22,740 nt of DNA from a virus, in the IMG/VR virus record IMGVR_UViG_3300007960_000213, positions 1-22,740 of that record; one strand, written 5' to 3'. A program made the position numbers and the translations under genes. Position 1 is the first letter of the stretch; every line of letters begins with the position of its first letter. The notes under the pieces are model-generated. The model saw nothing but the letters and a program-made list of their open reading frames with translations, did no database searches and had not been told where the DNA came from. Below, in pieces: positions 3,306 to 22,085 of the stretch.

Positions 3306-4956
3306 ATTGAAGTTTTGGGAAAAGGCACCCAAGGTTGAAACTCATGATGAGAAAATGGCAAGAGCACTGATGGGTAACAATGATAATGAAAACGAAATTA
3401 CTCCCGGTATCGGCAAGATGGCCACATTTAATGGCTATGAGTATCCTGTTGTTAATCGTATTTACGATGGAGAGAAAGAGCAAGGAGAGTTAGGTGCTCC
3501 TGTAAGTTGCAATATGTCGTACAGGACATTACAGGCTAGAGGTTGGCAGATATATACAGAGTCAGACATCGCAAAGACGTTGGTAAGAACTCTGGTTGAT
3601 GGAGTATTAGGATCTGGACTAAAATGTCAATCTCAGCCTATTAAGGAGATGATACCTGAGATCGGAGAAAAGCAGTTGGTTGACTTGAAAAAGCAAATGG
3701 AATTAAGGTATAGGTTATACGCTGAGGACAATAACTCTACTTATTCAAAAATGAATAACTTTCATGAGTTAACCAGAGAGCAGTATGAGGCCATGATTGT
3801 TGGTGGTGACTGTCTTCAGGTGTTTAGATATGACAATGGGCCAAACAAGGAGGTTATAGATGGAAGATTAATTCAATCTCCTGATATTTCCATGGAGGAG
3901 AAAGCGAGGAAAAGAGGTAACGTAATAATTAATGGCGTTGAGATAAATAAAAAAACCAGAGAGCATGTTGCTTATTATGTTCTTCAGTCAGATCTTACAT
4001 ATAATAGAATACCAAGAAAATCACCATTAGGAAGGATTCAAGCATGTATGGTATATGGAGATAAGTACAGGTCGGATTCAGTAAGAGGTATGCCATTGAT
4101 GATTAGATCAATTGAAAAGATCAAAAAAATGGATAGATACATTGAGGCAATGGTTGGAGGAGCCGAGGAAAGAGCAAAAATACCTTTCTTCTTCGAACAT
4201 AATCACTTCTCTACAGGTGAGAATCCAATGATGAAAGCTATATTAGATGCTGCCAAAATGGGAGAGGGAGCGCAAAACCTTCCATTGTACGATGGTGCAG
4301 CATTAATAGAGGCAGGAAAGAAAATTGCAGAAGTATCGGGTAAAACACCTGCAAACCTTCCTGTAGGTGCTACAATGAAAGCTATTGACAGTACTGTAGA
4401 ATTGAGACTTAGGGATTTTTGTGACGGTACATTTCTTTACATATGTGCATCGTTAGGTATTCCAATTGAAATAGCATTAAGTAAGTTTGAGCAGTCATTC
4501 TCGGCTTCCAGAATGGCATCTGAGATATGGAAAATGCAGGTTAAATTATACAGAAAGCAGATCGAAAGAAATATATATCAACCATTCTATAACTACTTTA
4601 TAGATACAGAGGTTAAGATTGGAAGATTATCTATACCGGGTTATGAGGCAGCGGTAAGCAGTGAGGATATAATAAAGTTACAAGCATATAGAAGCGCAAG
4701 ATTCACAGGTCATGGTGTTCCTAATGCTGATCCTGTAAAAGAAGTTAAGGCTGTCGTATTGATGTTGCAAAATAATCTCGTATCACATGAGCAAGCAGCA
4801 GAACTATTAGCCGATACAGAATGGGATGCAGTAATTGATAAACTTGGTGCCGAATATGAGGTAATCAAGAGTGTAATCCCGATTGAATATCAGCGACCTC
4901 CAAATGCGGAGACTGATAGTGCAGAGTTGCCTGATGAGGGTGAAAGTGCAGAGTAG
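3295..4956 (+). CDS. Portal protein, lambda gpB family (PF05136)
   Basis: The portal is the dodecameric ring at the capsid vertex through which DNA enters and leaves. At 553 residues it is of usual size. The N-terminal half has the family pattern of a Trp/Arg-rich segment followed by LVRTLVDGVLGSGLKCQSQP (about 95-114), which matches the conserved NTLVDNVVGSGL-type motif. AMVGGAEERAKIPFFFEH (about 283-300) and FEQSFSASRMASEIWK (about 400-415) are also typical. The C-terminus is acidic (ending in DSAELPDEGESAE). It is the last gene of the first block, and a strong terminator begins 25 nt after its stop. Confidence 0.9.
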   Translation: MAFKLKFWEKAPKVETHDEKMARALMGNNDNENEITPGIGKMATFNGYEYPVVNRIYDGEKEQGELGAPVSCNMSYRTLQARGWQIYTESDIAKTLVRTLVDGVLGSGLKCQSQPIKEMIPEIGEKQLVDLKKQMELRYRLYAEDNNSTYSKMNNFHELTREQYEAMIVGGDCLQVFRYDNGPNKEVIDGRLIQSPDISMEEKARKRGNVIINGVEINKKTREHVAYYVLQSDLTYNRIPRKSPLGRIQACMVYGDKYRSDSVRGMPLMIRSIEKIKKMDRYIEAMVGGAEERAKIPFFFEHNHFSTGENPMMKAILDAAKMGEGAQNLPLYDGAALIEAGKKIAEVSGKTPANLPVGATMKAIDSTVELRLRDFCDGTFLYICASLGIPIEIALSKFEQSFSASRMASEIWKMQVKLYRKQIERNIYQPFYNYFIDTEVKIGRLSIPGYEAAVSSEDIIKLQAYRSARFTGHGVPNADPVKEVKAVVLMLQNNLVSHEQAAELLADTEWDAVIDKLGAEYEVIKSVIPIEYQRPPNAETDSAELPDEGESAE

Positions 4957-4980
4957 TAAATAATGGTTTATAACGAAGAA

Positions 4981-5006
4981 GGGAGGCTTAACGGCCTCCC
5001 TTTTTT
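4981..5006 (+). terminator. Intrinsic terminator after portal, with the minus-strand gene ending inside it
   Basis: GGGAGGC (4981-4987) and GCCTCCC (4994-5000) form a perfect 7-bp GC-rich stem with a 6-nt loop, followed directly by TTTTTTATTTT. This is a textbook Rho-independent terminator for the + strand. The stop codon of the converging minus-strand gene lies in the loop, so the hairpin may also slow that transcript, although the U-tract on that side (TTCTTCG) is poor. Confidence 0.85.
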
Positions 5007-5227
5007 ATTTTCTTTAGTTCCTGTTCCAGAACTTCCAGATCTGTTGTTGAGCAGTTGGATAGGAAAGTTTCTATATCTGTGGTTAAGTATTTCTTGTTTT
5101 CAGCTCTTACAGCTCTTGTTATGTATTTGCTTACGTTTGTATCGCCTGATAGCTTCATTGCCCGTCTCATTTCATGGTGAATTTCTAGTGGCATTGTGTA
5201 TCCGGATCTATATATTCCGTTGCTCAT
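4988..5227 (-). CDS. Probable ribbon-helix-helix DNA-binding regulator
   Basis: This is the only gene on the minus strand, 79 residues from the ATG at 5227. The frame is open further, to 5311, but the longer start lies upstream of the gene's own -7 element (5250-5257), so the short start is preferred. Residues about 10-46 read as an Arc/MetJ/CopG-like ribbon-helix-helix: a short strand (YTMPLEI), a first helix (HHEMRRAMKLSG), a turn (DTN), and a second helix (VSKYITRAVRAENKKYL). A charged second helical part (about 50-75) could mediate oligomerisation. It converges with portal over the terminator and diverges from the protease gene. A role as a local repressor or autoregulator of the two divergent promoters is inferred. 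The antitoxin alternative is less likely because no toxin gene is adjacent. Confidence 0.62.
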   Translation of the reverse strand: MSNGIYRSGYTMPLEIHHEMRRAMKLSGDTNVSKYITRAVRAENKKYLTTDIETFLSNCSTTDLEVLEQELKKIKKGGR

Positions 5228-5249
5228 AATGTCTGATGTTTGTGCATTA

Positions 5250-5257
5250 CAAATATA
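5250..5257 (-). promoter_or_regulatory. Promoter element of the minus-strand regulator (TATATTTG)
   Basis: On the minus strand, TATATTTG fits the TAnnTTTG consensus exactly and ends 22 nt before the ATG at 5227, giving a short leader. A -33 TTTG at the standard distance is not present. The element overlaps the palindrome TTTGT-GCATT-ACAAA (5239-5253), a possible operator. Confidence 0.5.
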
Positions 5258-5312
5258 GTGAAATGGACAAAATTCACCTAACGGGTTATTAAATTGCAAT
5301 GAGTGAGACACT

Positions 5313-5337
5313 TACATTTGTTTTGTACGTAAATTTG
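5313..5337 (+). promoter_or_regulatory. Promoter for the protease-capsid-tail operon (two -7 elements)
   Basis: Two exact TAnnTTTG elements occur in the divergent gap: TACATTTG at 5313-5320 and TAAATTTG at 5330-5337, the latter 17 nt before the protease start. A TTG at 5294-5296 is 16 nt before the first element, slightly short for a -33 site. Because the terminator at 4981-5006 isolates the upstream block, a promoter is needed here to express everything from 5355 onward. Confidence 0.55.
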
Positions 5338-5349
5338 TATCAAACAAAT
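5316..5349. promoter_or_regulatory. Inverted repeat over the head-tail promoter, candidate operator
   Basis: ATTTGTTT (5316-5323) is the exact reverse complement of AAACAAAT (5342-5349), and the promoter element TAAATTTG lies between the arms. The pentamer TTTGT also occurs in tandem at 5317-5326 and again at 5334-5338, with ACAAA at 5344-5348. Clustered short half-sites of this kind are typical targets of ribbon-helix-helix repressors, and the gene for such a protein is adjacent. Binding is an inference. Confidence 0.4.
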
Positions 5350-5354
5350 CAAGT

Positions 5355-6332
5355 ATGCCAGATATATACCTATACGAAACGATCAGTGAGTTTTCTGCTG
5401 AGAAAATAAATAGAAGCTTAACGAATAACGAAGGTAACGATGTTACAATCAGAATGACAACCAGAGGAGGTTATACCCCTGCAGGTGCAGCAATGATTAT
5501 GGGTATTGATAAATTCCCCGGGAAAGTAAAGATGAGTGTAGATGGAGATGTAAGCTCTATGGGTGCTATAATGCTTTTATATGCAGACGAGGTGGAGATG
5601 TCAGAAATGGCAGAGGTTATGTTTCATAAGGCTGCATATCCAGACTGGTATATGCCAAGCGATGATGAGAAAGCAAACCTAAAAAGAGAGAATGACAGAT
5701 TCAAAAAGAAAATGGAGAAAAGACTTGGGGAAGCAGGTCAGGCAACCATAGATAAGATATTTGAAGAAGGTAAGCGAAATGACGTTTATTTGACCGCTAG
5801 ACAGGCTAAAAAGATTGGTTTAGTAAATAAGGTCATAACACTTGATCCGAGTCAAAAGGCAGCCGTTAAAATGGCTATGGAAAATATGCCTAAAGAAGGA
5901 GTAGATAATAAAAAATCAAATACTAATATTAATAAAAACGCAAATAATATGTTGGAAATTACCCAAGATCAGTTAGATGCAAAACTAGCTAAAGCGGAAA
6001 AGGCAGGGTATGATAAGGGCCTTGAAGCAGGGAGAAAAAAAGAAGCTGACAGACGTTCAGCTTGGGAACAATTTGCTGATGTTGATCCTGATGCAGTAAA
6101 GACAGGATTAGAATCAGGCGAAGAGATGTCTCGTTCTGAGGAGATCAGAATGATGAGATTGGCAAATCAGAAAGATGCCAAAAAAGAACTAGAGAATGAC
6201 AATGCTGACGGTGTAGAAACCGAAGGACAAGATTCTCCTGTAGATGAGAAGACTGCAGAACAAAAGCGCAAAGAAGCTGTTCGAGCAGAGGTAGAAAAAG
6301 CGTGTGGAATAACAAGTAAAACTAAGGAATAA
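5355..6332 (+). CDS. ClpP-type prohead protease fused to scaffolding domain (lambda gpC/Nu3-like)
   Basis: The N-terminal part (about 1-165) is a ClpP/S49-like serine protease. The oxyanion segment TTRGGYTPAG is at about 35-44. The nucleophile is Ser68 in GDVSSMG (compare GxxxSMG of ClpP), the base is His91 in VMFHKAAY, and the acid is probably Asp143 in NDVYLTARQAKKIGLV. After an Asn/Lys-rich linker (about 182-197), residues 199-325 are charged and helical (KLAKAEKAGYDKGLEAGRKK), as expected of a scaffold released by self-cleavage. Met199 (ATG at 5949) could be an internal start giving free scaffold, as in lambda C/Nu3. It is the first gene after the divergent promoter, and its stop overlaps the next start (TAATG). 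Confidence 0.85.
   Translation: MPDIYLYETISEFSAEKINRSLTNNEGNDVTIRMTTRGGYTPAGAAMIMGIDKFPGKVKMSVDGDVSSMGAIMLLYADEVEMSEMAEVMFHKAAYPDWYMPSDDEKANLKRENDRFKKKMEKRLGEAGQATIDKIFEEGKRNDVYLTARQAKKIGLVNKVITLDPSQKAAVKMAMENMPKEGVDNKKSNTNINKNANNMLEITQDQLDAKLAKAEKAGYDKGLEAGRKKEADRRSAWEQFADVDPDAVKTGLESGEEMSRSEEIRMMRLANQKDAKKELENDNADGVETEGQDSPVDEKTAEQKRKEAVRAEVEKACGITSKTKE
5949..6332 (+). CDS. Possible internal-start scaffold protein (Nu3-like)
   Basis: An in-frame ATG at 5949 begins the scaffold-like part of the protease gene, directly after an Asn/Lys-rich linker. It would give a separate 127-residue helical, highly charged scaffold, parallel to lambda Nu3 nested in C. The upstream bases are A/T-rich (AAAACGCAAATAAT) with no Shine-Dalgarno, which is acceptable for Bacteroidota translation. 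This is inferred from architecture alone. Confidence 0.35.
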   Translation: MLEITQDQLDAKLAKAEKAGYDKGLEAGRKKEADRRSAWEQFADVDPDAVKTGLESGEEMSRSEEIRMMRLANQKDAKKELENDNADGVETEGQDSPVDEKTAEQKRKEAVRAEVEKACGITSKTKE

Positions 6333-6796
6333 TGGCAGATGCATCTATAAGAAACGCAACAGCGAATCAGTTGACAGTTGACTATCAGAGGAATAGACTT
6401 TCCTTAATGTATACTGATACCGTAAGAAGGGATTATGCTAACATCTCAGGATCAGAAGAGAGTGCAGTAATAGGTACACTTATGGGCGTAGTTGCTGCAA
6501 CAGGTAAATATGTTCCTATGCAATCAAACGCTTCGAATGGTTCACAGGTTCCTGTAGCTATATTGTTTCAAAATATTGAGGCAGCAGAAGCAGCAGCAGA
6601 GATTGATAACATTTTACTTCTTAATAGTGGTGATGTTAATAGTAATCTGTTAGTATTTGCTAAGGAGGGAGATACGCTTGATACTCTAGTAGCATCAGCC
6701 GGTGGAGATACTAAATCTGTAAGAGATTGGTTGATTCAGAATTGCAAATCATTAAAGCTTGTTGCCGTTGAGGATTCAAGCGAGTTCGATAACTAA
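6332..6796 (+). CDS. Head decoration protein, lambda gpD-like
   Basis: This 154-residue protein sits between protease/scaffold and major capsid protein, the slot of lambda gpD, which trimerises on the expanded shell and stabilises it. The diagnostic segment is GTLMGVVAATGKYVPMQSNA followed by SNGSQVPVAILFQNI (about 48-82), matching the family pattern of a start-up GTVL.., a P....ASDGS loop and a PVGVL strand. An Ala/Glu stretch (EAAEAAAEID) follows, then a beta-rich C-terminal part. The start is fixed by the TAATG overlap with the preceding gene. Confidence 0.8.
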   Translation: MADASIRNATANQLTVDYQRNRLSLMYTDTVRRDYANISGSEESAVIGTLMGVVAATGKYVPMQSNASNGSQVPVAILFQNIEAAEAAAEIDNILLLNSGDVNSNLLVFAKEGDTLDTLVASAGGDTKSVRDWLIQNCKSLKLVAVEDSSEFDN

Positions 6797-6811: not shown

Positions 6812-7903
6812 ATGAGTTTAACTATAAGAGAAGCGATGAGTGAGTTCTCATATGCCGTAATGCAAAAAGTAGAAGTTCTTCCGGAATTAGATACTGGATT
6901 CAAAAACTTCTTCAAAGAAAACGAAAATGTTACCAGAGGGGTAAAAGTGTTTGTTGAAAGACAGGGTCGTCCGATAGCGAAAGATATTGCTCTCGAAGAG
7001 AAAGGTATCACCACAAGAAGAGATAAGTCAACAGAGAAATTCTATATACCTCCTTACTTTGATTATAAATTCAACTATTCTGCACTTGAAGAGTTTGAGC
7101 CTTTTATGGGAGAGGATAACTCAACAGCTGATATGGGAATCTTACGTGAGTTAGTTGAAAATACAGCTAAAGGAGTTCAGGAGAATGCTGATAGAATGGA
7201 GAGACGTAGAGAGCTTCAAAGAGCACAATCTTTACTTACAGGTATAGTTACCATGGATAATGGTGATAATATCAACTTCCAACGAAAATCTGCATCTCTT
7301 GTAGCATACGATGCAGCTCATGGATGGGATGTAGATACTGTATCTCCTGACATCATACTTAAGCAAGGTGCAGAGTTTCTTATAAAAGAAGGTAAAGTAA
7401 GTACAAAAAGACCTTACAATATCATAGCAGGTTCAGCAGCAATTTCAGCGTTGAAAGATAATCCTATTTTTCAAAAATATACTGACAATAGAAGATATTC
7501 GGAAGGTCAGTTTGAAACGGCAGCACCAACAGAAGGACTTGTAAGTCATGGACGTATTAATGCCGGTGATTTTAGATTTAATCTTTGGGGATACCCTGCA
7601 TATTACGATGATCCTGATACAGGTTTAGATACTTCTTATATGGATACTAACAAGATTATCATACTTCCTGATGCACAGGTGTTCTCAATGCAGTTCTGTG
7701 GTGTTAAAGGATGGGATAGAGATCCGTATCAAGCAGGAGCAGTTCCAAAGATCAAAAAGACTAAAATGTACTCTTATGAGATTAAGTCTATTGAGTCTTG
7801 TGCATTAGAATTAGGTTTGAGATCATCATTTACTCCGATTTTGGATAAAGTAGATGCAGTATTCACAGCTCAGGTAGTAGCAGATCAACAAGGACAGGGA
7901 TAA
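6812..7903 (+). CDS. Major capsid protein, lambda gpE family (PF03864)
   Basis: This is the HK97-fold shell subunit. At 363 residues it matches the size of lambda gpE (341). Segments typical of the family are the N-terminal start SLTIREAMSEFSYAVMQKVE, the strand VKVFVERQGRPIAKDI, the E-loop region KFYIPPYFDYKFNYSALEEF (about 77-96), the long spine helix NTAKGVQENADRMERRRELQ, and the late PDAQVFSMQFCGVKGWDRDP followed by a MYSYEIKSIESCALELGLRS region. There is no sign of an N-terminal delta domain, which fits with the separate scaffold in the preceding protease gene. Confidence 0.92.
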   Translation: MSLTIREAMSEFSYAVMQKVEVLPELDTGFKNFFKENENVTRGVKVFVERQGRPIAKDIALEEKGITTRRDKSTEKFYIPPYFDYKFNYSALEEFEPFMGEDNSTADMGILRELVENTAKGVQENADRMERRRELQRAQSLLTGIVTMDNGDNINFQRKSASLVAYDAAHGWDVDTVSPDIILKQGAEFLIKEGKVSTKRPYNIIAGSAAISALKDNPIFQKYTDNRRYSEGQFETAAPTEGLVSHGRINAGDFRFNLWGYPAYYDDPDTGLDTSYMDTNKIIILPDAQVFSMQFCGVKGWDRDPYQAGAVPKIKKTKMYSYEIKSIESCALELGLRSSFTPILDKVDAVFTAQVVADQQGQG

Positions 7904-8355
7904 TGAAAAAAATAGCATTAATATTGTTGTTAGGTGTAATAAGCCTAACAACATTTTCACAAAGTAGGCCACAGGCTGATCAGAGTTTAAAGTATGGCGA
8001 TACTTGGTCGTTGTACTTAGGTAAAAATGCAGACACTATCGGTGTTGGTGACAGTACATGGACAAGAGTAGTTAATAAATTGACTACTGATAAAGTTGGC
8101 GTTGAATGGAGGATTTATCTTGACAGTCTTTCAGGTACAGCAGACACAGTAGACTTGTTCTTTTACTATTCTACACATGGATTGACGTACACTTTAGAAG
8201 ATACCGTTACATGGTACGGCACTCAGGATACGTTGATTATATTCGATGATGATACTACCAGAGTTGGAGATTACAATAAAGTATTTATACGAGAAAGAGG
8301 TGATAACTTCAAATTCAGAATAGATACTGTCGCAAACAAATTTTATTACGAATAA
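7903..8355 (+). CDS. Signal-peptide-bearing beta-rich protein of unknown function
   Basis: I do not recognise this 150-residue protein. Residues 1-20 (MKKIALILLLGVISLTTFSQ) form a clear Sec signal peptide of the type common in Bacteroidota secreted proteins, with cleavage likely after FSQ. There is no lipobox Cys and no later membrane segment. The mature part is rich in Thr, Asp, Tyr and Val with alternating patterns (DTVDLFFYYSTHGLTYTLED), suggesting a beta-sandwich. There is no other Met in the protein, so a cytoplasmic ATG-started form is impossible in this frame. The start overlaps the capsid gene stop (TAATG), tying it to the head operon. It could be a periplasmic or surface moron, for example for superinfection exclusion, or a structural protein whose signal-like N-terminus is misread. 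Confidence 0.7.
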   Translation: MKKIALILLLGVISLTTFSQSRPQADQSLKYGDTWSLYLGKNADTIGVGDSTWTRVVNKLTTDKVGVEWRIYLDSLSGTADTVDLFFYYSTHGLTYTLEDTVTWYGTQDTLIIFDDDTTRVGDYNKVFIRERGDNFKFRIDTVANKFYYE

Positions 8356-8783: not shown

Positions 8784-9167
8784 ATGGGGACATTGCTAGA
8801 TATAGCGAGAGAAGATGCGAGAAGTTTTGTCAGTGATACTGACGGCTTCTCGACCCCTCTAACTTTCACAACACTTACAGATGAAGAGTTCACAATAAAT
8901 GGCCTTGCATCAGTTCATAGTCAATCATTCGATTCAGATGGATTGCCGGTAATAGGAGATAATTCACACATATGTTTTTCGGAAAAAGATGTGAATGATG
9001 CCGGTTACACAACAAGAGATGCAAATGGTAATGTAAATATAAGAGGTTGGAGAGTTGCATTTAATCACTCCGTTGGGGCAGTAAGTGCAATACTTAGCAG
9101 ACCTGAGCCGGATAGTACGTTAGGATTAATAAGAGTAATGATTACCAATTACAACGACAATGAGTAA
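8784..9167 (+). CDS. Head-tail closure protein, gpFII-like
   Basis: This 127-residue protein sits between the gpFI-like and tail terminator genes, the place of the lambda gpFII or Mu gp36-type head closure proteins that plug the connector and receive the tail. It starts with an amphipathic segment (LLDIAREDARSFVSDTDGFS), then beta-rich sequence (LTFTTLTDEEFTINGLASVH) and a late GWRVAFNHSVGAVSAILSRP. The pattern of a beta-strand domain carrying a Ser/Asp-rich loop fits the family. Its ATG abuts the previous TAG, and its end overlaps the next start by 8 nt. The call is mainly by order and size. Confidence 0.5.
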   Translation: MGTLLDIAREDARSFVSDTDGFSTPLTFTTLTDEEFTINGLASVHSQSFDSDGLPVIGDNSHICFSEKDVNDAGYTTRDANGNVNIRGWRVAFNHSVGAVSAILSRPEPDSTLGLIRVMITNYNDNE

Positions 9168-10398
9168 AATAAGCACGATAATAGAATTTGCGAACCACGA
9201 GAAGGTTAGGGCTAAGATAGCTCAGATACTTGCTGTGGAGATAGCAAATCAGATCAGTCTTATTGATGCTGAATTGGCAGATAGTCCAACTCCTGAAAGA
9301 GAAGAAGTACTGAATATTTACAAAGCTGCATTACCCACAACAGTATGGGATAGCAGATTTTTACAGCCAGGACCGGATGAATTGCCTTTCCTAAATGTTG
9401 TATTCATGAAAAGTCCTCTTGATGGACTTAATACAGTGAGTACTCAGGATGGAATGGTGCAGTTTGTAGTTGAAGCATGGCAGGGAGCCGAAACCGATTC
9501 TGAAAATAGAGGAGATTATTTAGCTTCAATTTATTTGCAAAGACTGCTTGAAGTTGTAAGGTCTATACTTCAATACAGAGGCTATCTTAATCTTGATCTT
9601 GATCCTTATGTGGGTAATATAAATAAGGTAAGTGATATTGAGATAATGCAACCTGAAGATAATGCCGGTAAGAACGCTCAAAACCTTATTTACGGTAAAT
9701 TATCAATTACAATTAGAATTCCTGAGTGTTCAGATAATTTACCCGGGATAGCATGGTTTGAGTCAGTAACAGGTGTTGAACTTAACGAATCAGAGTTAGG
9801 ATATAGTTGGGATGTAATTCAGAGTGAGGACTTTTTATACAATTTGGCAGCAGCAGAAAAGAATATTGCACCTGATGGTTATAGAGTTCCTACCAGAGCA
9901 GATTATTTATTGCTATCATCGACATTATCTAATCCTAAAGGGGAAAAATTAAAATCGACTACAGGTTGGACTAATCCGGGTACTGATGAATTTGGTTTCA
10001 ATTGGCTTAATAAAGGCTACAGACAAGAGGATGGTCAATTTGCAGAGTTAATTCAGGGCTTTTATTCTGGATTAAGATTGCAGCCTAATCCACCGGGTAT
10101 TCCTGTTCCTGCAATGGCTGTTATACCAAACAATCAGGATTTGTTTTCATTGGATGATGTAGGTGCAAAATCAGGATTACCAATAAGGTTAATTAAGGAA
10201 GACTCAACAGACGAAGGTAGTTTTACCGATATTGATGGTAATGTTTACGGAACCACGAAAATAGGCGTTCAGGTATGGGCAACTAAAAATTTCAGATGTA
10301 CTAAATATAATGACGGAACACCTATCCCACGATTGGATAGTGACAGTGATTGGGAAAATGACACAGATGGAGCATATTGTATTTATAATATTAATTAA
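9160..10398 (+). CDS. Tail terminator protein with C-terminal permuted FISUMP domain
   Basis: Residues about 1-195 look like a tail terminator (lambda gpU / Mu gp37 type), which caps the tail tube and joins it to the head: LPFLNVVFMKSPLDGL (about 75-90), FVVEAWQGAETDSENRGDYL (about 102-120), the helix ASIYLQRLLEVVRSIL, and a last strand YGKLSITIRIP. Residues about 220-412 are a FISUMP module. First comes the half usually second (FLYNLAAAEKN, GYRVPTRADYLLLSSTL, LPIRLIKED), then the half usually first (DIDGNVYGTTKIGVQVWATK, YNDGTPIP, DGAYCIYN at the very end). The module must project from the neck ring. At 412 residues the gene is about twice normal terminator length because of the fusion. Module boundaries are by eye. 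Confidence 0.7.
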   Translation: MSKISTIIEFANHEKVRAKIAQILAVEIANQISLIDAELADSPTPEREEVLNIYKAALPTTVWDSRFLQPGPDELPFLNVVFMKSPLDGLNTVSTQDGMVQFVVEAWQGAETDSENRGDYLASIYLQRLLEVVRSILQYRGYLNLDLDPYVGNINKVSDIEIMQPEDNAGKNAQNLIYGKLSITIRIPECSDNLPGIAWFESVTGVELNESELGYSWDVIQSEDFLYNLAAAEKNIAPDGYRVPTRADYLLLSSTLSNPKGEKLKSTTGWTNPGTDEFGFNWLNKGYRQEDGQFAELIQGFYSGLRLQPNPPGIPVPAMAVIPNNQDLFSLDDVGAKSGLPIRLIKEDSTDEGSFTDIDGNVYGTTKIGVQVWATKNFRCTKYNDGTPIPRLDSDSDWENDTDGAYCIYNIN

Positions 10399-10408
10399 AG
10401 GATAAAAA

Positions 10409-11974
10409 ATGGCATCAATAAGCACAAATGTAGACTTGGGAAGAGTCTCAGCAGTAGTTGGCTATGGAATAGAAGCCACATTGGAAGGTATCGGATTGGG
10501 ATTTCTTCCGCAAAGCATCGGAATACCGGCACAGGCCGACACGGTAAATGAATCAACGGCTCCGAGTGTATTGAGTTTTACTTCTTCGAAAGAGGTCGGA
10601 GATGAGTTCGGTTACGGATCACAAGCATATCAGATAGCAAGGATTTTAAGACCAAAATCGGGAGATGTTTTAGGAGGTATTCCAACTAAGATATTAAAAG
10701 TAGCAGCAGCCGGAGGAGGTGCAGCGAAAGTTATAACTACTACTGTATCTGGCACTGCCACAGGTAATGCTACGCATTATCTAAAGGTAAATGGAAGAAC
10801 TCAATTAGATGGTGACTCATATGCATTTTCAGTAGAGACAGGAGATACAGCATCAGAAGTAGCTACAAAGATGGCATCTGCAATGAATGCTGTGCTTGGG
10901 TGTCCTATGACAGGATCAACATCAACAGCAGATTTTATCGCAACAGCGGATTCAGTAGGTGCATTTACCGATGAGTATAATGTAGAGGTTTTAACGCAAG
11001 GTAATGCAGTAGGCATGAGTTATGCAACTGTATCTACAGCATCGGGTTCAGGAGTTCCGTCAATATCTACTGCTCTCGGTAATATCGGAGATGAATGGGT
11101 TACTATGATAGTAAACGGATTTGGATCTGAAGAAACTATTTTAGATGCACTGGAAGACTTCAATGGAGATGCTAATACAAAAACAGGTAGATACGATGCA
11201 ACTATTTTTAAGCCTTGTGTGGCGTTCTTTGGTGATAATAATGTAAGCTTACTCACTGAATCATCAGAGGGTGCAGGAGATGGCATTACAGAAATAACTG
11301 ATACTCCAACAGGAAGAAAGTCTGAGATGACAAATGTATTTTGCCCGGCACCAAATTCTAAAGGTACAGCAGCAGAAGCAGCAGCAAATATGTGTGTTCT
11401 TTATGCTCCATTAGCACAGAGTACTCCGAACGTTGATCCTATTGGATTGAGTTATCCTGACATGCCTATTGATTCAGATACGGATATTGGGGATTTTGCA
11501 GATGTTGCGAAAAGGGATCAGATCGTTAAAATCGGTGGATCTACAGTTAAACTTGTTTCAGGGTTATACAATGTGGTGGATCTAGTTACAACTTATCATC
11601 CGGATAATGAGCCACAAACAGCGGTATTGTTTAGATGGGTTAGAGATGTTGTAGGAGTAGACTTTAACTTCAGATATGCATACAAGTTGCTAGAGGAGAT
11701 CTATGTTGTAGGTAAAACAATCGTACAGCCGGGTGAAAGTTCTGCAACAGGGACAATATCTACAAACAGATGGAAAAGTATACTTGCAAGCCAATATGGC
11801 CCTTCATTAGTAGATAACGCTCTTATGGCTGATTTAAGCTACTTTATTGAGTCGCTTAATGTTCAGATAGGTGAATCGAATCCAAATAGATTTGAGACTA
11901 ATTTCAAGGCAAAAAGAACGGGTACTGCAAGAGTACTTGATACAACTAATCAAACAACTTTTAACTTCGGATAA
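10409..11974 (+). CDS. Contractile tail sheath protein (Mu gpL-like)
   Basis: The sheath subunit surrounds the tail tube and contracts at infection. At 521 residues it matches Mu gpL (about 495). The N-terminal part carries a strand-rich segment with GDEFGYGSQAYQIARIL (about 63-79). A central part has DALEDFNGDANTKTGRYDAT then IFKPCVAFFGD, a typical sheath core. The C-terminal core domain includes TYHPDNEPQTAVLFRWVRDV then VGVDFNFRYAYKLLEE, followed by a last strand TNFKAKRTGTARVLDTTNQT. A Ser/Thr/Ala/Gly-rich stretch (about 100-220) is probably the protruding domain on the tail surface. Together with the following tube gene, it makes this phage a myovirus. Confidence 0.88.
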   Translation: MASISTNVDLGRVSAVVGYGIEATLEGIGLGFLPQSIGIPAQADTVNESTAPSVLSFTSSKEVGDEFGYGSQAYQIARILRPKSGDVLGGIPTKILKVAAAGGGAAKVITTTVSGTATGNATHYLKVNGRTQLDGDSYAFSVETGDTASEVATKMASAMNAVLGCPMTGSTSTADFIATADSVGAFTDEYNVEVLTQGNAVGMSYATVSTASGSGVPSISTALGNIGDEWVTMIVNGFGSEETILDALEDFNGDANTKTGRYDATIFKPCVAFFGDNNVSLLTESSEGAGDGITEITDTPTGRKSEMTNVFCPAPNSKGTAAEAAANMCVLYAPLAQSTPNVDPIGLSYPDMPIDSDTDIGDFADVAKRDQIVKIGGSTVKLVSGLYNVVDLVTTYHPDNEPQTAVLFRWVRDVVGVDFNFRYAYKLLEEIYVVGKTIVQPGESSATGTISTNRWKSILASQYGPSLVDNALMADLSYFIESLNVQIGESNPNRFETNFKAKRTGTARVLDTTNQTTFNFG

Positions 11975-11976
11975 TA

Positions 11977-12378
11977 ATGGCAGCAATAGTAGCAGGAGAC
12001 GTTAAGGAGATAGCAGTAGACCACCCTGGATTGGGTGGCTATGTGTTCGAGCATAAGTCAACAGAAGACTTCAATTTCAGAAAAGGAGGTTTTCAAAACA
12101 GAGATGACGATGGTGATAACACATCATCCGGAACCAAGATATTTGTTAAGGAGAGAAAATCTTGGATGTTAGAAACTACAGTAGGAGCCACAGAAGGTGC
12201 TCATGATTTTCTTCAGCAATTGCATGAGAGTTCTGTAGAGGCAATAGTTACTTTGGTATTTCAGAATGGAAAAACAAGATCGGCTACAGGATTGCCTGTA
12301 GGAGATATTGACCAAAATGCATTTGCAGGGACTATACCTTTTAAGTTTAGTGGTTCTGGAACTTTTGATGAAGTATAA
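11977..12378 (+). CDS. Tail tube protein
   Basis: This 133-residue protein directly after the sheath gene is the expected inner tube subunit, forming stacked hexamers through which DNA passes. It is beta-rich with the loop GGFQNRDDDGDNTSSGTKIF (about 34-53). Further strands follow (VEAIVTLVFQNGKTRSATGL), and it ends FKFSGSGTFDEV, the typical late strand of tube proteins. Its length is close to that of small contractile-tail tubes (about 115-170). The gene starts two bases after the sheath stop (TAA-TA-ATG). Confidence 0.75.
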   Translation: MAAIVAGDVKEIAVDHPGLGGYVFEHKSTEDFNFRKGGFQNRDDDGDNTSSGTKIFVKERKSWMLETTVGATEGAHDFLQQLHESSVEAIVTLVFQNGKTRSATGLPVGDIDQNAFAGTIPFKFSGSGTFDEV

Positions 12379-12881: not shown

Positions 12882-13027
12882 AAAGTTCAATAGCTGTAGT
12901 CGGCTTAGAAACAGGATGGAGTCCTGAGAGACTAGATAATTTGTACATGGATGATTATGATATTTATGGTTTGTATTGGTGGACCAGAGAGATTGATGAA
13001 TTAAACAAACGTAGTAACGATGGGTAA
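12815..13027 (+). CDS. -1 frameshift extension of the tail assembly chaperone
   Basis: The -1 frame relative to the chaperone gene is open from 12815 to a TAA at 13025-13027, overlapping the chaperone's end by 67 nt and the tape-measure start by 8 nt. It has no ATG until 12947. It encodes a protein-like tail: PFYKGRVHYDVKSSIAVVGL, then ETGWSPERLDNLYMDDYDIY and GLYWWTREIDELNKR. The pattern of GW.P..L..L.. plus an aromatic-rich end is like the extensions of other frameshifted chaperones. The likely slip site is the codon pair CTT-TTT at 12849-12854 within CCTTTTTA, where Phe-tRNA can re-pair perfectly in -1. The P-site pairing is imperfect, so this is not a canonical heptamer. The fused product would be about 208 residues. 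Confidence 0.65.
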   Translation, partial: QRLWVAAIHSEPFYKGRVHYDVKSSIAVVGLETGWSPERLDNLYMDDYDIYGLYWWTREIDELNKRSNDG

Positions 13028-14714: not shown

Positions 14715-15175
14715 TGGAGAACTATTCTATATATGATAACGGTGATGGAGGACAGTTGTTCATTCAGAATAATGACATCCAGAAAAGTGGAGGATTAGGA
14801 GTTGCAGTTTATTTGAAGCTTTTTGGCGGTAATGTTGATGCATCTACTACAGGTCAAGAGGTATCCGGTGAAATAAGAAAAGATTGGTGGGGAAATAACC
14901 GATTTGATACTAGCAGAAAATGGATTAACTCAGAGACAGAAAGAGTACTTAGGGGTGCTTCTCTTACTGATCAGTCATTGATAGATATTGAAGAAGCTGT
15001 TAAGACAGATCTTGAATCGTTAAAGATTTTTGGAGAGATAAGTGTAAGTGTTGCTTATCCGGGATTAAATAGAGTAAGTATAGCGATAACCATTAAGCAA
15101 GTTGCACAGGATGCAGAGATACTTGTTGTATGGGATGCTACTAAAAATGAAATTATACAGAATATTGAAATATAA
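14714..15175 (+). CDS. Baseplate wedge-like protein, Mu gp46 family (PF07409)
   Basis: This 153-residue protein directly before the baseplate J gene corresponds to Mu gp46. Supporting features are the early aliphatic/Gly segment LGVAVYLKLFGGN (about 28-40), the conserved IRKDWWGNNRFDTSRKWIN (about 54-72) and RVLRGASLTDQSLIDIEEAV followed by KTDLESLKIFG (about 77-107). After these comes a beta hairpin (ISVSVAYPGLNRVSIAITI). Together they match the gp46 order of DWW...S.W, a helical unit and a hairpin, which is also related to the gp25/gpW-like wedge fold. Start and stop both overlap neighbours by TAATG. It follows the tape measure directly, where Mu-like phages usually have hub and spike genes. 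Confidence 0.7.
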   Translation: MENYSIYDNGDGGQLFIQNNDIQKSGGLGVAVYLKLFGGNVDASTTGQEVSGEIRKDWWGNNRFDTSRKWINSETERVLRGASLTDQSLIDIEEAVKTDLESLKIFGEISVSVAYPGLNRVSIAITIKQVAQDAEILVVWDATKNEIIQNIEI

Positions 15176-16371
15176 TGGCTGAAAATATACCAAAAATATC
15201 AGAACTAGAAAGTCAATACTTAAACAACTATGCTTCAAGGTTGGGGGTGGATGTTTCGGACTTGGGCGATTCTTACATAGTAGAGGCTAAGACTCAGGCA
15301 GCAGTGGTATATTCTTTGTATCTTAAATTATCTAAGGTTCAGAATAATATATATCCGGACTTGGCAGAGATGGATGTATTGATGAGATACGGATATGCTA
15401 TATTAGGAAGGTATCCTGAACCTGCTACACAGGGCGTATTTTCGGCTATAGCATTGGGCACAGGAACTATTCCTGCACAAACTCAATTTGTGGCGAATAA
15501 TGATACATCGGCAGCAGGTAAATTGTATATAGTTGATCAAGATTGGATAATAAGTACATCGGGTATAATCGAGATAAGAGCATTAGAGGGCGGCATAGCA
15601 TCAGATCTTAATCAGTCCGACAAGTTAACGTCAATACAGCCGTTAACTGGAATTGACAATGAAATAGTGGTTACATTGCCTGTTATTGTAGAGCCTGTAG
15701 ATGCAGAAGATATAGAACAGTACAGGCAGGATGTATTGGCAGGAATAAGAATACTTCCTCAGGGTGGGGCACCGGGAGATTATAGATTATGGACTCTGGA
15801 GATACCGGAAGTTCGCACAGTGTATCCATTTTTGAATACGACTGAGATAGGTGATGTGTTGATTTATGTAGAGGCCACACCGGAAGCGACAAAGGCAGGT
15901 GAAGAGACAGGAGTCCCAACACAGGATACGTTGGATGATGTATATACTGCTCCTTCAGGAGGTAATCCAGAGTCAGGGGCCGTAATATATGACTCGGTAG
16001 AGCAAAGGGGAAGAAAGCCTATTACAGTTAATAATATAATACCTCAGGCTGTGACACCAATACCTGTAGATATAGATTTTACAGACTTGTCAGATGAGAA
16101 TATAGCTGATTCCATAAGAACGGCACTTGATAGTTATCTGTATGAAATAAGGCCATTTGTTGCAGGGGCACAATCGTTGAGGAGTAAAAACGACATATTG
16201 ACAATTGGAGGAATCACAGCACAAATATTGGAGGTATTGACAGGAACAGGCATAACATATACAAATTTGGATATGAGTGTTTCAGGAGTAGGAAGCATTG
16301 CGAGTTTTACATTCCTGTTTGGTAATTATCCATATTTGAGAAATATAAATAACAATGGAAGTCCGATATGA
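15175..16371 (+). CDS. Baseplate J-like protein (Mu gp47 / P2 gpJ, PF04865)
   Basis: This is the wedge protein that links the baseplate hub to the tail-tip and fibre proteins. It has 398 residues. The order of features is the family's own: a helical N-terminus (SQYLNNYASRLGVDVSD), the beta part with G-rich turn (LEGGIASDLNQSDKLTSIQP), and then EPVDAEDIEQYRQDVLAGIR (about 172-191), corresponding to the G.D.E..E..R.R.l signature. Next come LPQGGAPGDYRLWTLEIPEV (about 193-212) and a beta strand GDVLIYVEA. The C-terminal half (RGRKPITVNNIIPQAVTPIP then VDIDF) is the usual peripheral domain. It overlaps the next gene through ATGA at 16368. Confidence 0.88.
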   Translation: MAENIPKISELESQYLNNYASRLGVDVSDLGDSYIVEAKTQAAVVYSLYLKLSKVQNNIYPDLAEMDVLMRYGYAILGRYPEPATQGVFSAIALGTGTIPAQTQFVANNDTSAAGKLYIVDQDWIISTSGIIEIRALEGGIASDLNQSDKLTSIQPLTGIDNEIVVTLPVIVEPVDAEDIEQYRQDVLAGIRILPQGGAPGDYRLWTLEIPEVRTVYPFLNTTEIGDVLIYVEATPEATKAGEETGVPTQDTLDDVYTAPSGGNPESGAVIYDSVEQRGRKPITVNNIIPQAVTPIPVDIDFTDLSDENIADSIRTALDSYLYEIRPFVAGAQSLRSKNDILTIGGITAQILEVLTGTGITYTNLDMSVSGVGSIASFTFLFGNYPYLRNINNNGSPI

Positions 16372-18338
16372 TAAAAGTAACTGACATAATACATAAACTT
16401 GTTTCCGGCCTATATCCAACAGGTAGGGCTTGGCGGTATGGTCGTGACTTTAAGAATATAGGAGCTACAGATATTACCGGGTATGGCTACTTGTATAATT
16501 GGTATGCCATGACTGATGATAATTTTTCAACGATAGAAAACTTTAGGATTCCTAATGATGATGATTGGAATGGATTATTTACTCACTTAGATCCGAATGG
16601 AGGTGTTAAGGCCAGTGGTATATTCGAATTGTGGGATGATGATGTTAGACGTAATTCGGAATATTTCGGACAATCAGGACTTGATTTAGTTGCAGGATGC
16701 AGGAGAACATCAGCAGGAACGTTTGATGGAACATTAGGTGAGTTCGCTGCATATGGATCATCTACAGAAGGTGCTACTCCCAGTTTATGCACATATTGGT
16801 TGCTGTATGCATCGGGAACCATATATCAGGATGTTACAGGAGGTCTTAAAAAACAAGGAAGTTCTGTTAGATTGGTTGCAGACGGAGATTATACATCTCA
16901 AATACTTGAAGATTACGATGGGAACAGGTATGGATCGGTTTACATAAACGGCCAAACATGGCTTACTGAGAACTATAGGTGTACGCATTTATCTGATGGA
17001 ACGTCAATACCAAATGTTACTGATGGTACAGCTTGGGGTGCTTTGACGACATTAGCGTACTGTGCATTTGATAACGAAGAGAATAATGTTACCCGCGAAA
17101 GTTTAAATAATGTGTCTTTGTCAGACAAAACGATGAGTGCTAAAACTCAGGGATATGATGATGTTAATACAAGTATTGGTAATATATTAAATCAGATTAT
17201 TCCAGACAACGATGCATTTGATTTAGATGATATTGAATCTTGGGAACGAGTTTTGGATATTGATAACAGCACCCTTACTAATGACCAAAGAAAAAATATA
17301 ATACTTGCAAGATTGTCATATCCAAATGGACAGTTGTATAGACAGACACAGGAATTTATACAAGAACAATTACGAGCCAACGGGTTCGATGTTTATGTGC
17401 ATGAGAATAGGTTTAATACCGGGACTAATCCTTTCCCGTTTGAGCCTGTAGATATTAATTCTGCAGTATATGGAAATGTGGTGTACGGAGAAACAACATA
17501 TGGCAATGTAGGTGTTAAGTATGATACATTACTATGCAATTATGTGGATAAAACAATTGACGAGGCAAATCAGCCTATAATATCAGATAAACAAAATAAT
17601 ATATTTTTCATCGGAGGAGAAGTTTATCCTGAGCAAGCATATATTGATCCTGCAAGAGAAAAAGAGTTTAGGCACTTGGTATTAAGTTTGAAACCTGCTC
17701 ATAGTGCTGCAGCTTTGATAACAGGCAGTAGTAATGTTGATAGAGGATACTTGTATAATTGGTATGCTTCACAGTTGGTAGGATTTAGTACTATTACAGA
17801 TTTTGATGTGCCAACTGATACAGAATGGGCAGCATTAGAGTCGTATATAAATAATGCATTCATAGACGGGAAAATATTAAAAGCAACGTATGGTTGGCCT
17901 ACGAATCAAGGGATAGATTTACATGGATTTGCAGCATTACCAAACGGATTAAGAAGTGGAACAGGTGTCTTTACTTCGGTAAGTGATAATTGTAGGGTTA
18001 TGTTATTAGACAATGCAACAAGTGCATATAAAGGAGTGTATATGTCTGATGCAGACGGGATAATAAATACAAACCCATTCCCAAATAGTATAGGATATAG
18101 TATTAGGATGATATATAAAGGTGGTGGAACCCCGGATAGTGTTGTTTATGATAAAGATGGCAATGCATATGATGTGGTCCAAATAGGTTCTCAATATTGG
18201 TTAGCACAGAACTACGCATGTACGCAATTGAGTGATGGAACTGAAATACCAAACATAACAGATGATACAGATTGGGGGAATGACACATCAGGAGCAAGAT
18301 GTGCAAGTAATAATGACGAAAGTACTGTTTTTAAATAG
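16368..18338 (+). CDS. gp48/gpI-like tail-tip protein with two permuted FISUMP modules
   Basis: The backbone is a DUF2313-type tail protein (Mu gp48, P2 gpI slot), which links the baseplate to fibres. Its N-terminus LVSGLYPTGRAWRYG (about 11-25) is separated from the rest (about 245-450, with SWERVLDIDNSTLTNDQRKN then IILARLS and IQEQLRANGFDVYVHE) by FISUMP module B (about 39-240). Module C follows at about 459-656 and ends the protein. Both modules begin GYLYNWYA, pass a P.D..W motif and an SVRLV or SIRMI strand, then DGNRYGSVYINGQTWLTENY or DGNAYDVVQIGSQYWLAQNY, and end in LSDGT.IPN. That order is circularly permuted relative to standard FISUMP domains. The middle part also has a repeated YGNVVYGETTYGN. 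The protein is about three times the length of a bare gpI-like protein. Confidence 0.78.
   Translation: MIKVTDIIHKLVSGLYPTGRAWRYGRDFKNIGATDITGYGYLYNWYAMTDDNFSTIENFRIPNDDDWNGLFTHLDPNGGVKASGIFELWDDDVRRNSEYFGQSGLDLVAGCRRTSAGTFDGTLGEFAAYGSSTEGATPSLCTYWLLYASGTIYQDVTGGLKKQGSSVRLVADGDYTSQILEDYDGNRYGSVYINGQTWLTENYRCTHLSDGTSIPNVTDGTAWGALTTLAYCAFDNEENNVTRESLNNVSLSDKTMSAKTQGYDDVNTSIGNILNQIIPDNDAFDLDDIESWERVLDIDNSTLTNDQRKNIILARLSYPNGQLYRQTQEFIQEQLRANGFDVYVHENRFNTGTNPFPFEPVDINSAVYGNVVYGETTYGNVGVKYDTLLCNYVDKTIDEANQPIISDKQNNIFFIGGEVYPEQAYIDPAREKEFRHLVLSLKPAHSAAALITGSSNVDRGYLYNWYASQLVGFSTITDFDVPTDTEWAALESYINNAFIDGKILKATYGWPTNQGIDLHGFAALPNGLRSGTGVFTSVSDNCRVMLLDNATSAYKGVYMSDADGIINTNPFPNSIGYSIRMIYKGGGTPDSVVYDKDGNAYDVVQIGSQYWLAQNYACTQLSDGTEIPNITDDTDWGNDTSGARCASNNDESTVFK
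16488..16507 (+). repeat. 20-bp direct repeat, copy 1 (start of FISUMP module B)
   Basis: TACTTGTATAATTGGTATGC here is identical to 17748-17767, exactly 1260 bp (420 codons) downstream, and encodes YLYNWYA. It marks the start of each FISUMP module in the tail-tip gene. In-frame recombination between the copies could swap or delete modules. Confidence 0.85.
17748..17767 (+). repeat. 20-bp direct repeat, copy 2 (start of FISUMP module C)
   Basis: This is the second copy of the repeat described at 16488-16507. The surrounding module sequence has diverged much more than this stretch, pointing to strong conservation of YLYNWYA, gene conversion, or a fairly recent module duplication. Confidence 0.85.
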
Positions 18339-19329: not shown

Positions 19330-19896
19330 ATGCCATATGCATACGGATATAAATATGGAATAAGAGTTGGTCGGTTATTGAAGCCATGCACTGATAATCT
19401 TATATTTTGGTTAGACAGGTATAATGCTGAATATACTGAATTATTAGATAAAAGCGGTGAAGGCAATGATGTTGATGTGTTAAGTAATTCAAAATATCTT
19501 GACGGAACATCAACAATAACGGTATATGATGAGGGAAATTTTGTTCATGTAATTGATACGGTTAGCATTAATCAATCAATAGACAATACTATTTTTTCTG
19601 AAATTGAGTCTTCTTTAGATTCAGAAAACACATTGTTTTTTAAGAATTTTGATGAAAACAAAATAGTTTTTGGTACTGACGGATCGAATAATTTTTCAGG
19701 GTGGTTTGGACAAATTGCGCTTGCAAATAACTATGGCGGTGAATTTATCCGCATTGCAAATTCATCGGGAATAGATGAGGAGGATTTCAATATATTAAAA
19801 TCAAAGGAACAATATTATGTAAATCAAGCCTTCCCGTTTGGCGAAATTAAACCTGGAATGAATATTAATTATAATATGAATGTAACAGCATTATGA
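19330..19896 (+). CDS. Tail fibre-like protein of unknown function
   Basis: This 188-residue protein is not assigned to a family. It starts with a Tyr/Gly-rich segment (MPYAYGYKYGIRVGRLLKP) and then has DNLIFWLDRYNAEYTELLDK followed by SGEGNDVDVL. This resembles the beginning of concanavalin A/LamG-like beta-sandwich domains found in phage fibres (pattern W.D......DKSG.GND). The rest alternates beta strands with Asn/Asp/Ser turns (FGTDGSNNFSGWFGQIALAN). It overlaps the spike gene by 4 nt (ATGA), so the two are probably translated together. A role in carbohydrate contact or spike attachment is inferred. Confidence 0.5.
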   Translation: MPYAYGYKYGIRVGRLLKPCTDNLIFWLDRYNAEYTELLDKSGEGNDVDVLSNSKYLDGTSTITVYDEGNFVHVIDTVSINQSIDNTIFSEIESSLDSENTLFFKNFDENKIVFGTDGSNNFSGWFGQIALANNYGGEFIRIANSSGIDEEDFNILKSKEQYYVNQAFPFGEIKPGMNINYNMNVTAL

Positions 19897-22085
19897 GTAT
19901 AAAAAAAGTATTTAACACAAAAAACGCTGCTTTAGCAATGATGAATTTTATTGATTCAGAAGCAGATAAGATAAATAATCAGGTAGGTTATATATATGAC
20001 AATATTGATAGCTTAGATTTTGGAGCTAACACAGATACTTCGCAGCCAGTTGCGAAGACTATAGAGGCTTTGCCGTCTGATTTCCCGCTTGCCTACGAAA
20101 ATGCAGTTAGATTATACACTACTGCTCCATTGACGAATTTTACTAGAATAGGAGTCAAGACGTTTCATGAATACAAGGCGTTGAAAAACGGCAAAATTAA
20201 ACTATCGTTTTGGGTTGAACAGTATAGTACTGCATATCAGTATAACATTGGTTTGGGAGTTGGTATTGTATACTATAGAGGATTAGCCCCTTCGGTGACG
20301 AAAAGTATAAATTGCGTAATTCCTACACGAACGCTAGTAGACACTGCGATACCTGCAATTGATGCAGGAGGTGTATATAATGAGAGCTTTACTGACTACG
20401 ATATTACCATTAATGACTATGTAACTTATGGAGGTGTTAATTATTTTAATATCCAAGCAGAGATAACAACAGATATTGCTCAATCTGACTTTTTCGAGAT
20501 CTCATGGAATGCATTAGGTGTTACTAACTTTGCCGGTGGCGAAAGTCCTGATATATTAACATTCGGTCATACGGTTGTTGATTTTGATGAAGAAATAAAT
20601 TATAATATTGATTCGTCATTTATTACTCAGATAAAAAACAAATTGTCAAATCAAGAAGACAATTATGTTGATAGTTATGTTTTAGATAACAAGATTATTG
20701 ACATTATGGAAAACTCAGGTTTAGTAAAATATGCAAGTACAGAGGATTTTTCTAATACACACAATGGAAAAATCACATCAGAGCAAACAGACATAACAAC
20801 TTCAGTTGTGTATGACGAATTGTTTAATAAAAAATATACAGTTACAAAGAACACTGGCAACTTAGAAAAGTTTGTTAGTTCTGTTACTCCGAAGTCAGTT
20901 ATGACATTCACTCCCCCTGTGACTGATTCAGATACACTAAAGGATGAAGGTACGTTGTCATTTTGGATTAAACGCTCTGAGCTAAATGGTAACGGCATTA
21001 TATTCACAAATGGAAGTGGTGGAACATGGTTATTAACACAAGCTCATTTATTAGCAGAAGGATTTGTAAAAACCCGTTGGGAGTCTGGCACTGATTACCA
21101 AGAATTACGGGTTAATTCAGTCGATGGAGATTATACACACATAACAATTAAATATAACGCTGATATTTCGATATATTACTTCATACGTGTATCAATTTAT
21201 GATCTCGGCAGTGATGTTAGTACAATTAGTTTATATAACCCTACATTTATTTACTCTGATAATGTTAATCCTTATCACTATTACAAATCACTGTCTGAGA
21301 AAAAAGAAAGTGAACTAAGAGGTAAAAACGCTGTATTGATAGGAGATTCACAGTATAATAATGGTATTGTAGCGTCAAGAGTTGCGAAAGACTTGGGTGT
21401 TAATATCTTTGATGCTCATTTTGGAGGGCATTCCATGAAAATCAGATCAAGTCAGCTTGCATCACCAACTTATCAATCATTTTATCATTATGATTTAAGA
21501 AGCAATGTTTTAGGGCTTGCAGATATAGACTTGTATATCATAACAGCAAGTACAAACGATGGAAGTGGTGGAGGTGTTGCAACTGAGGCATCCGTTAATT
21601 ACGTACTGAACAACTACCCTGTGTACGGCGATGATGCAGGAACTATTGCAGCAAAACAAGCGTTATTCGATGCATTATCAAATCAAGATGTTGATGATAA
21701 CTTTACATACATGGCGTGTTATGCTGCTTACCTAAAGCAGATCTATGAAAATAATCCTGATTCAAAGGTGATTATATGCAGCGTACCAATTTCCGCAATA
21801 GGATTGTTAACAGGCAATGAAGTTGACGGACATGGTGAATGGGATGTTGGCGAAGATGCAGATACCGCAAGAACGGCTTATGAAGCAACGTATGATGCAA
21901 TAAATTCAGAGAATTTAACATTGTCAAAAAGATATAATACATATTACGCTGATTTTGAAAAAAAATGTGGTATGTCATTTGAAAACTTTATCTATAAATC
22001 AATTGACGGCACACACTGGCTTGACAATGTGAGTGAGGCAACTGCATCAACATTAATTAAAGAAATTAAAGGTATAGACTTGTAA
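19893..22085 (+). CDS. Tail spike/fibre with C-terminal SGNH/GDSL esterase domain
   Basis: This 730-residue protein has a short helical head (about 1-40), a beta-rich part (about 60-235), a connector (about 240-325), a probable beta-sandwich (about 326-455, with GTLSFWIKRSELNGNGIIF) and a C-terminal SGNH hydrolase (about 476-730). The catalytic blocks are present in order: GDSQ with nucleophile Ser486 (block I), the Gly of FGGHS at about 511 (II), ASTNDG with Asn555 (III), and SIDGTHW with Asp705 and His708 (V). Such domains remove acetyl or other ester groups from surface glycans. On a phage tail this implies deacetylation of capsule or O-antigen during adsorption, an inference from family and position. 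Between blocks III and V lies an insertion-like stretch (about 560-605). Confidence 0.8.
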   Translation: MSIKKVFNTKNAALAMMNFIDSEADKINNQVGYIYDNIDSLDFGANTDTSQPVAKTIEALPSDFPLAYENAVRLYTTAPLTNFTRIGVKTFHEYKALKNGKIKLSFWVEQYSTAYQYNIGLGVGIVYYRGLAPSVTKSINCVIPTRTLVDTAIPAIDAGGVYNESFTDYDITINDYVTYGGVNYFNIQAEITTDIAQSDFFEISWNALGVTNFAGGESPDILTFGHTVVDFDEEINYNIDSSFITQIKNKLSNQEDNYVDSYVLDNKIIDIMENSGLVKYASTEDFSNTHNGKITSEQTDITTSVVYDELFNKKYTVTKNTGNLEKFVSSVTPKSVMTFTPPVTDSDTLKDEGTLSFWIKRSELNGNGIIFTNGSGGTWLLTQAHLLAEGFVKTRWESGTDYQELRVNSVDGDYTHITIKYNADISIYYFIRVSIYDLGSDVSTISLYNPTFIYSDNVNPYHYYKSLSEKKESELRGKNAVLIGDSQYNNGIVASRVAKDLGVNIFDAHFGGHSMKIRSSQLASPTYQSFYHYDLRSNVLGLADIDLYIITASTNDGSGGGVATEASVNYVLNNYPVYGDDAGTIAAKQALFDALSNQDVDDNFTYMACYAAYLKQIYENNPDSKVIICSVPISAIGLLTGNEVDGHGEWDVGEDADTARTAYEATYDAINSENLTLSKRYNTYYADFEKKCGMSFENFIYKSIDGTHWLDNVSEATASTLIKEIKGIDL

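Follow-up and report, generated by a model that had tools for sequence, protein, structure and literature searches.

A predicted phage tail terminator with a circularly permuted FISUMP domain and its possible display at the neck

Introduction

What does a FISUMP domain do at the C-terminus of a predicted tail terminator? The question is raised by a 412-aa protein encoded in a 22,740-nucleotide stretch of viral DNA, here called the window (the whole stretch that was analysed). The source is a single 22,740-base contig, a fragment from an uncultured virus, and the phage is known from its sequence alone. Most work on phage adhesion concerns the tail tip. Should the terminator ring naturally carry binding domains, it would be a defined, six-fold and genetically simple site for adhesion at the neck in Bacteroidota-type myophages. 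We found no open-access paper on FISUMP together with phage. A limited search by title and abstract, which is no proof of novelty, returned nothing on circular permutation with C-type lectins and phage, and nothing on tail terminators with lectins or carbohydrate binding.

Results

Gene neighbourhood of the 412-aa protein

Open reading frames and Pfam and PHROG searches showed that the window holds a structural module from a phage with a contractile tail. The terminase, portal, protease and capsid genes were named by their place and by the annotated gene order of phage FCV-1, not by family search. The features used below are:

8784..9167, + strand: Hc1 head closure (phrog_4598, 2e-24), next gene upstream and marker of the neck module
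9160-10398, + strand: predicted tail terminator with FISUMP, 412 aa, a single uninterrupted open reading frame
9160..9816, + strand: predicted tail terminator domain, residues 1-219 (phrog_4671, AF2 model, structure matches)
9820..10398, + strand: permuted FISUMP domain, residues 221-412, with core 225-346 and hairpin 351-410 (PF09603, half-domain HMMs, AF2)
10409..11974, + strand: tail sheath (phrog_165, 3.4e-61), next gene downstream, with a product that presumably contacts the terminator arm
starting at 11977: tube, structural module
starting at 13020: tape measure, structural module
starting at 14714: baseplate wedge, structural module
starting at 15175: baseplate J, structural module
16368-18338, + strand: gp48-like baseplate protein, 656 aa (phrog_4920, 5e-39)
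16485..17075, + strand: permuted FISUMP copy 1, residues 40-236 of the gp48-like protein, inserted after the conserved LYPTGRAW segment
17742..18314, + strand: permuted FISUMP copy 2, residues 459-649 of the gp48-like protein, C-terminal, after the conserved KPAH segment

The PHROG search gave the order phrog_4598, terminator gene, phrog_165 and phrog_4699 around the 412-aa protein. This slot order (head closure, terminator, then sheath or tube) is shared with FCV-1, FL-1 and SFCi1.

Three other genes of the window were also noted. Directly after the major capsid gene, the head cluster encodes a protein of 150 aa (7903-8355) whose N-terminus resembles a signal peptide (MKKIALILLLGVISLTTFSQ) and which has no Pfam match. 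A protein-like open reading frame of 107 aa lies on the minus strand of the late gene cluster, between the portal and protease genes (4988-5311). In the tail region, a 730-aa protein (19893-22085) matched a GDSL-type lipase/acylhydrolase (1.1e-5) and a LamG-like domain (5.1e-4), both under the curated cut-offs, and is possibly a surface polysaccharide esterase.

The N-terminal part resembles tail terminators

Residues 1-215 matched phrog_4671 (E 4.1e-17), a family annotated in PHROG as of unknown function, and a sequence search of the PDB with the terminator profile gave no match. A combined alignment of both domains placed terminators wrongly onto FISUMP, so the two domains were modelled separately, as monomers. 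For residues 1-222, an AF2 model based on 41 relatives reached a pLDDT of 84.7 and a pTM of 0.83, with low confidence at residues 191-205. Foldseek with this model returned tail terminators almost exclusively (best 1.3e-4), with lambda gpU, T5 p142, the P74-26 neck, the E217 neck and the Mu terminator at the top. The VIA alignment gave Z scores from 13.3 to 7.5 across 50 entries, nearly all of them tail terminators (T5 p142 13.3, R2 pyocin collar 11.6, lambda gpU and Mu 11.3, E217 gp29 10.3, T4 gp15 9.5), and the terminator fold spanned residues 8-193. The gene position pointed the same way: 76 of the 79 detected terminator entries sit 1-22 nt upstream of a sheath gene. In the fold of residues 8-193 (VIA Z 13.3-10) and in the position upstream of the sheath, the predicted protein is like lambda gpU, T5 p142, Mu, E217 gp29 and the R2 pyocin collar.

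These results support the assignment of the N-terminal part as a tail terminator by modelled fold and gene position. The initial annotation had proposed this for residues 1-195, and both the fold (Foldseek, VIA Z 13.3) and the slot between head closure and sheath agree with it. The fold matches go beyond chance and also suggest a likely function for phrog_4671, which, with the position, is likely the tail terminator family in these phages.

The terminator domain ends in a C-terminal beta-hairpin, in which residues 206-211 and 214-219 form the strands of the AF2 model. This hairpin (about 206-219) is conserved at the C-termini of the orthologues; T211 is near-invariant and G214 invariant in the alignment of 41 orthologues.

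The C-terminal domain is a circularly permuted FISUMP

The Pfam-A search assigned the C-terminal domain to PF09603 (Fib_succ_major) with an E-value of 1.4e-16 and a score of 61.7 bits (cut-off 33.9). This match, with both halves found, confirmed the earlier reading of the domain as FISUMP. It came in two stretches, residues 224-295 and the C-terminus. The profile search of the contig showed that 9826-10044 corresponds to profile positions 50-142 and the following 10258-10389 to positions 2-41. FISUMP is thus present but permuted, and the domain does not follow the colinear Pfam order (1-187). It is like PF09603 in scoring above the curated cut-off and in having both halves, but differs in that profile 46-186 stands ahead of 1-45 and in its fusion to a predicted phage structural protein. 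By sequence, it is a circularly permuted variant and not a standard member of the family, a point missed in the initial annotation. A colinear profile splits such a domain into two weaker matches, and may miss or misplace it.

Half-domain HMMs were used for the core (A) and the N-terminal hairpin of the Pfam profile (B), so that AB denotes the permuted and BA the standard order. The terminator domain was AB; in the gp48-like protein, one AB unit preceded and one followed the protein's own body. Standard tandem repeats seen out of register could mimic permutation. This was ruled out in the window: all three units are isolated between non-FISUMP sequence or protein ends, so the circular permutation is genuine and does not stem from repeat phase. 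Modelled with AF2, residues 214-412 reached a pLDDT of 84.9 and a pTM of 0.83 (hairpin part 95-97). The structure matches of this model in BFVD were viral proteins, with TMq of 0.82-0.85 to phage FISUMP proteins, and two of them are named FISUMP of uncultured Caudovirales.

Two further copies are located on a baseplate protein

The window phage has three FISUMP domains, one on the terminator and two on the gp48-like protein. The latter also matched phrog_203 (baseplate wedge, 2.6e-4) and PF10076 (Phage_Mu_Gp48, 6.4e-4, under the curated cut-off). PF09603 matched its two copies in the orders 45-186 then 1-48, and 50-185 then 1-45. The orthologues of this protein, FCV-1 gp33 and that of FL-1, are about 260 aa long and free of FISUMP. 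The domain had been described as lying far from the baseplate. That fits one copy, predicted at the neck, but modules of this type belong to the baseplate as well. Three copies suggest that the virion may grip surfaces at the neck as well as at the tail tip.

Domain order in phages and cells

The order of the two halves was compared in viral and cellular samples picked by similarity. At the viral loci, 46 open reading frames were AB, 7 ABAB and 1 ABABAB, versus 21 BA and 4 BABA. On genome contigs the counts were 94 BA, 14 BABA and 3 BABABA versus 5 AB; the core-first order was found in 5 of 121 open reading frames on bacterial contigs. The queries were in AB order, which enriches the viral set for AB, and its ratio is no census; the genome search also put AB-like hits at the top, yet nearly all that it returned were BA. 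A portal gene (1.1e-68) adjoins one of the five AB genes from genome contigs (contig L162), a tape-measure gene (6.4e-16) adjoins another (L167), and a third has an endolysin-type neighbour (L160); the neighbours tested for the other two had no PHROG match. The Pfam profile itself gave the permuted order in all 8 AB records tried, the colinear order in four BA virus records, and mostly colinear 1-187 matches on three bacterial genomes. The AB unit also exists as a stand-alone protein of 209 aa in Rhodobacteraceae phage LS06-2018-MD05. In the sets retrieved, the core-first order is dominant among phages and rare on bacterial contigs.

BA domains are real in viruses too, mostly at protein C-termini. 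Standard-order phage copies (L109-L127, with 308-aa proteins, L147 and L156-L159) lie mostly at the extreme C-terminus, and permuted ones are found in loops as well.

A tree of 111 FISUMP units (190 columns, weak branch support) showed strong clustering of the AB/BA label, which changes 5 times in total, and of the phage AB group (10 changes versus a shuffled mean of 36.7). The terminator copy was the most divergent of the window's three, with an end branch of 1.61. Holding the 55 AB units together gave a log-likelihood 38 units above that of the free quick search (p-AU 0.827). A single origin of the AB form is thus compatible with the AU test, though unproven. It is tempting, but decidedly tentative, to propose that the permuted FISUMP has a single origin in tailed phages, was derived from the cellular form and became a portable display unit for loops and C-termini of virion proteins; here, on the terminator's sheath-contacting arm, it would form a ring of neck binders that moves on sheath contraction. 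A largely phage-specific permutant, with its ends expected close together, would explain insertion into loops of unrelated tail proteins. The permuted phage FISUMP also offers a testable contrast to the cellular proteins of standard order.

The fusion is rare but does not look like an artefact

The terminator profile found 77 other loci, some near-identical, and all of 198-228 aa. None of these has FISUMP or another extra C-terminal domain of 190 aa, so that the fusion was seen in 1 of 78 terminators, that of the window phage. PF09603 was also absent from 50 records of sheath relatives. Together these make the window phage the sole FISUMP carrier of its tail lineage as far as seen. No viral contig matched peptides of the 412-aa protein itself, so the search revealed no close relative that shares the fusion.

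A chimeric assembly was considered and found no support. The GC3 of the fusion gene (0.244 versus 0.265 in neighbouring genes) and its codon usage (z 1.15) fit its neighbours, the spacing to the sheath gene, which starts at 10409, is normal, and the same contig contains two further copies. On these sequence features, the fusion does not appear to be an assembly artefact.

The domain could still be a passenger that recombines among virion genes, is tolerated at a C-terminus, possibly cleaved, and has no function at the neck. The occurrence in only one terminator fits this idea, as does the lack of a close relative that would show retention over time. However, the frame is open, the core residues are intact, the codon usage is adapted to the phage, the modelled fold is complete and the copy has diverged deeply from the other two. 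These features suggest that the domain has long been retained and did not arrive by accident recently, and we regard a mere passenger as improbable.

Diversity-generating retroelements

FISUMP has been reported among the targets of diversity-generating retroelements (DGRs), with similarity to DUF1566 by HHsearch (PMC4159848, PMC8143477). FISUMP and DUF1566 genes are known targets in Bacteroides phages as well, and the DGRs concerned were assigned to the class that targets C-type-lectin folds (PMC4159848, PMC8143477). The domain studied here might thus be a hypervariable neck binder. A permuted FISUMP gene does adjoin a complete DGR on a contig of a Bacteroidetes MAG (L168, 2569-6472). The reverse transcriptase there lies at 5510-6472, the template repeat at 5282-5406 and the variable repeat at 5091-5215 within the gene 3988-5229, with 22 of 27 differences at template adenines. 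However, that gene is not the FISUMP gene. In the window, itself a contig fragment, no reverse-transcriptase gene was found by open reading frames, Pfam or PHROG, and no TR/VR-like repeat was present. Reverse transcriptase was also found in 0 of 50 virus records with FISUMP; many of these viral contigs are fragmentary, so that the absence of reverse transcriptase, or of FISUMP, from such records counts for little. In addition, the permuted order places the core before the hairpin, and a 3'-terminal variable repeat of the usual kind would miss the core. DGR diversification of the window domain is therefore unsupported, and we consider it very improbable.

Fold of the FISUMP domain

A Foldseek search of the PDB with the FISUMP model gave nothing significant (none below E 1), and a sequence search of the PDB found no solved relative. 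UHRF1, the sole sequence match (E 0.03 or worse), was taken as chance. After re-alignment of 566 chains only three reached Z 2, and all three are C-type-lectin-like: the snake protein ZK002 (Z 4.4), CLEC9A (3.5) and rhodocytin (3.2), aligned to the model core 11-136. The best of them has a low score (Z 4.4, rmsd 3.0 over 84 residues). A C-type-lectin-like fold had been suggested earlier. The identity of the three chains speaks for it, the low Z and the lack of a Foldseek match against it, and the model of the permuted domain thus supports such a fold weakly.

A possible display of FISUMP at the neck

In phage E217, residues 172-182 of gp29 reach outward and join the sheath to complete a beta-sheet; during contraction they swing through about 25 degrees (PMC10329688). 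Residues 1-167 of gp29 aligned with residues 8-193 of the window terminator (VIA). The alignment ends at 193, and the conserved hairpin and then FISUMP follow at the position of the arm. By analogy, the hairpin at about 206-219 is likely a sheath-contacting arm. FISUMP starts at about residue 221, at the end of this presumed arm.

Combining sequence, models and analogy, we read the 412-aa protein, with moderate confidence, as a contractile-tail terminator whose C-terminus has gained a binding domain that is displayed at the neck. The terminator part would form a hexameric ring that caps tube and sheath, and the conserved hairpin would reach outward and bond to the first sheath ring. FISUMP directly behind the arm would then put up to six permuted modules on the outside of the neck. 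The copies at neck and baseplate may provide additional low-affinity contacts with a surface polysaccharide or matrix, and these could keep the virion on or near its host before the main receptor is engaged. The hexamer, the outward position, the binding and its ligand are all inferred; glycan or mucus binding and an uncleaved state in the virion are plausible. Counting against neck display, the fusion was seen once, in one uncultured 22.7-kb fragment, and in the most divergent of the three copies.

The same position behind the presumed arm would also suit a purely structural role, in which the domain, with no outside ligand, determines sheath stability or braces the joint where the terminator meets head closure and first sheath ring. 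The strongest divergence of the terminator copy agrees with this, but 77 orthologous terminator loci manage without FISUMP, and the module at two sites of a baseplate protein better suits a portable binding module. We regard the structural role as rather unlikely.

Among the relatives, three (L015 1567-2877, L047 2560-3870 and L033 6505-8172) have another, unrelated gene between terminator and sheath. Its products share the N-terminal 157 residues, and their C-termini are divergent and fibre-like. These genes have no family match; by sequence their products are candidate neck display proteins. They fit a habit of neck display in the lineage, which is not proof of it.

Comparison with known systems

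The Ficleduovirus Flavobacterium phages FCV-1 and FL-1 have the same gene order as the window (Hc1, terminator, sheath, tube, tape measure, wedge, J, gp48-like). Their terminators (201-209 aa) and gp48-like proteins lack FISUMP, whereas the window phage carries it in both. The Bacuni phages of Bacteroides, whose DGR variable proteins are surface proteins, use the same or a related FISUMP/DUF1566 family (PMC8143477). In contrast, no DGR was found in the window phage, its domain order is permuted and its carrier is the predicted terminator.

In 936 lactococcal phages, carbohydrate-binding modules occur at neck, tail and baseplate, and two of them, one from the tail and one from the neck, bound host cells (PMC6669499). 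As in the window phage, fusion or insertion has brought modules of the binding type into structural proteins at both neck and baseplate within one virion (PMC6669499). The 936 phages differ in being siphophages of Gram-positive hosts with a BppA-like module in the neck passage structure, the major tail protein and Dit (PMC6669499). Their neck carrier is a separate neck-passage protein, and that of the window phage is the predicted terminator. Binding modules at neck, tail and baseplate are thus already known, and the permuted FISUMP on a terminator appears to be a new variant of this arrangement.
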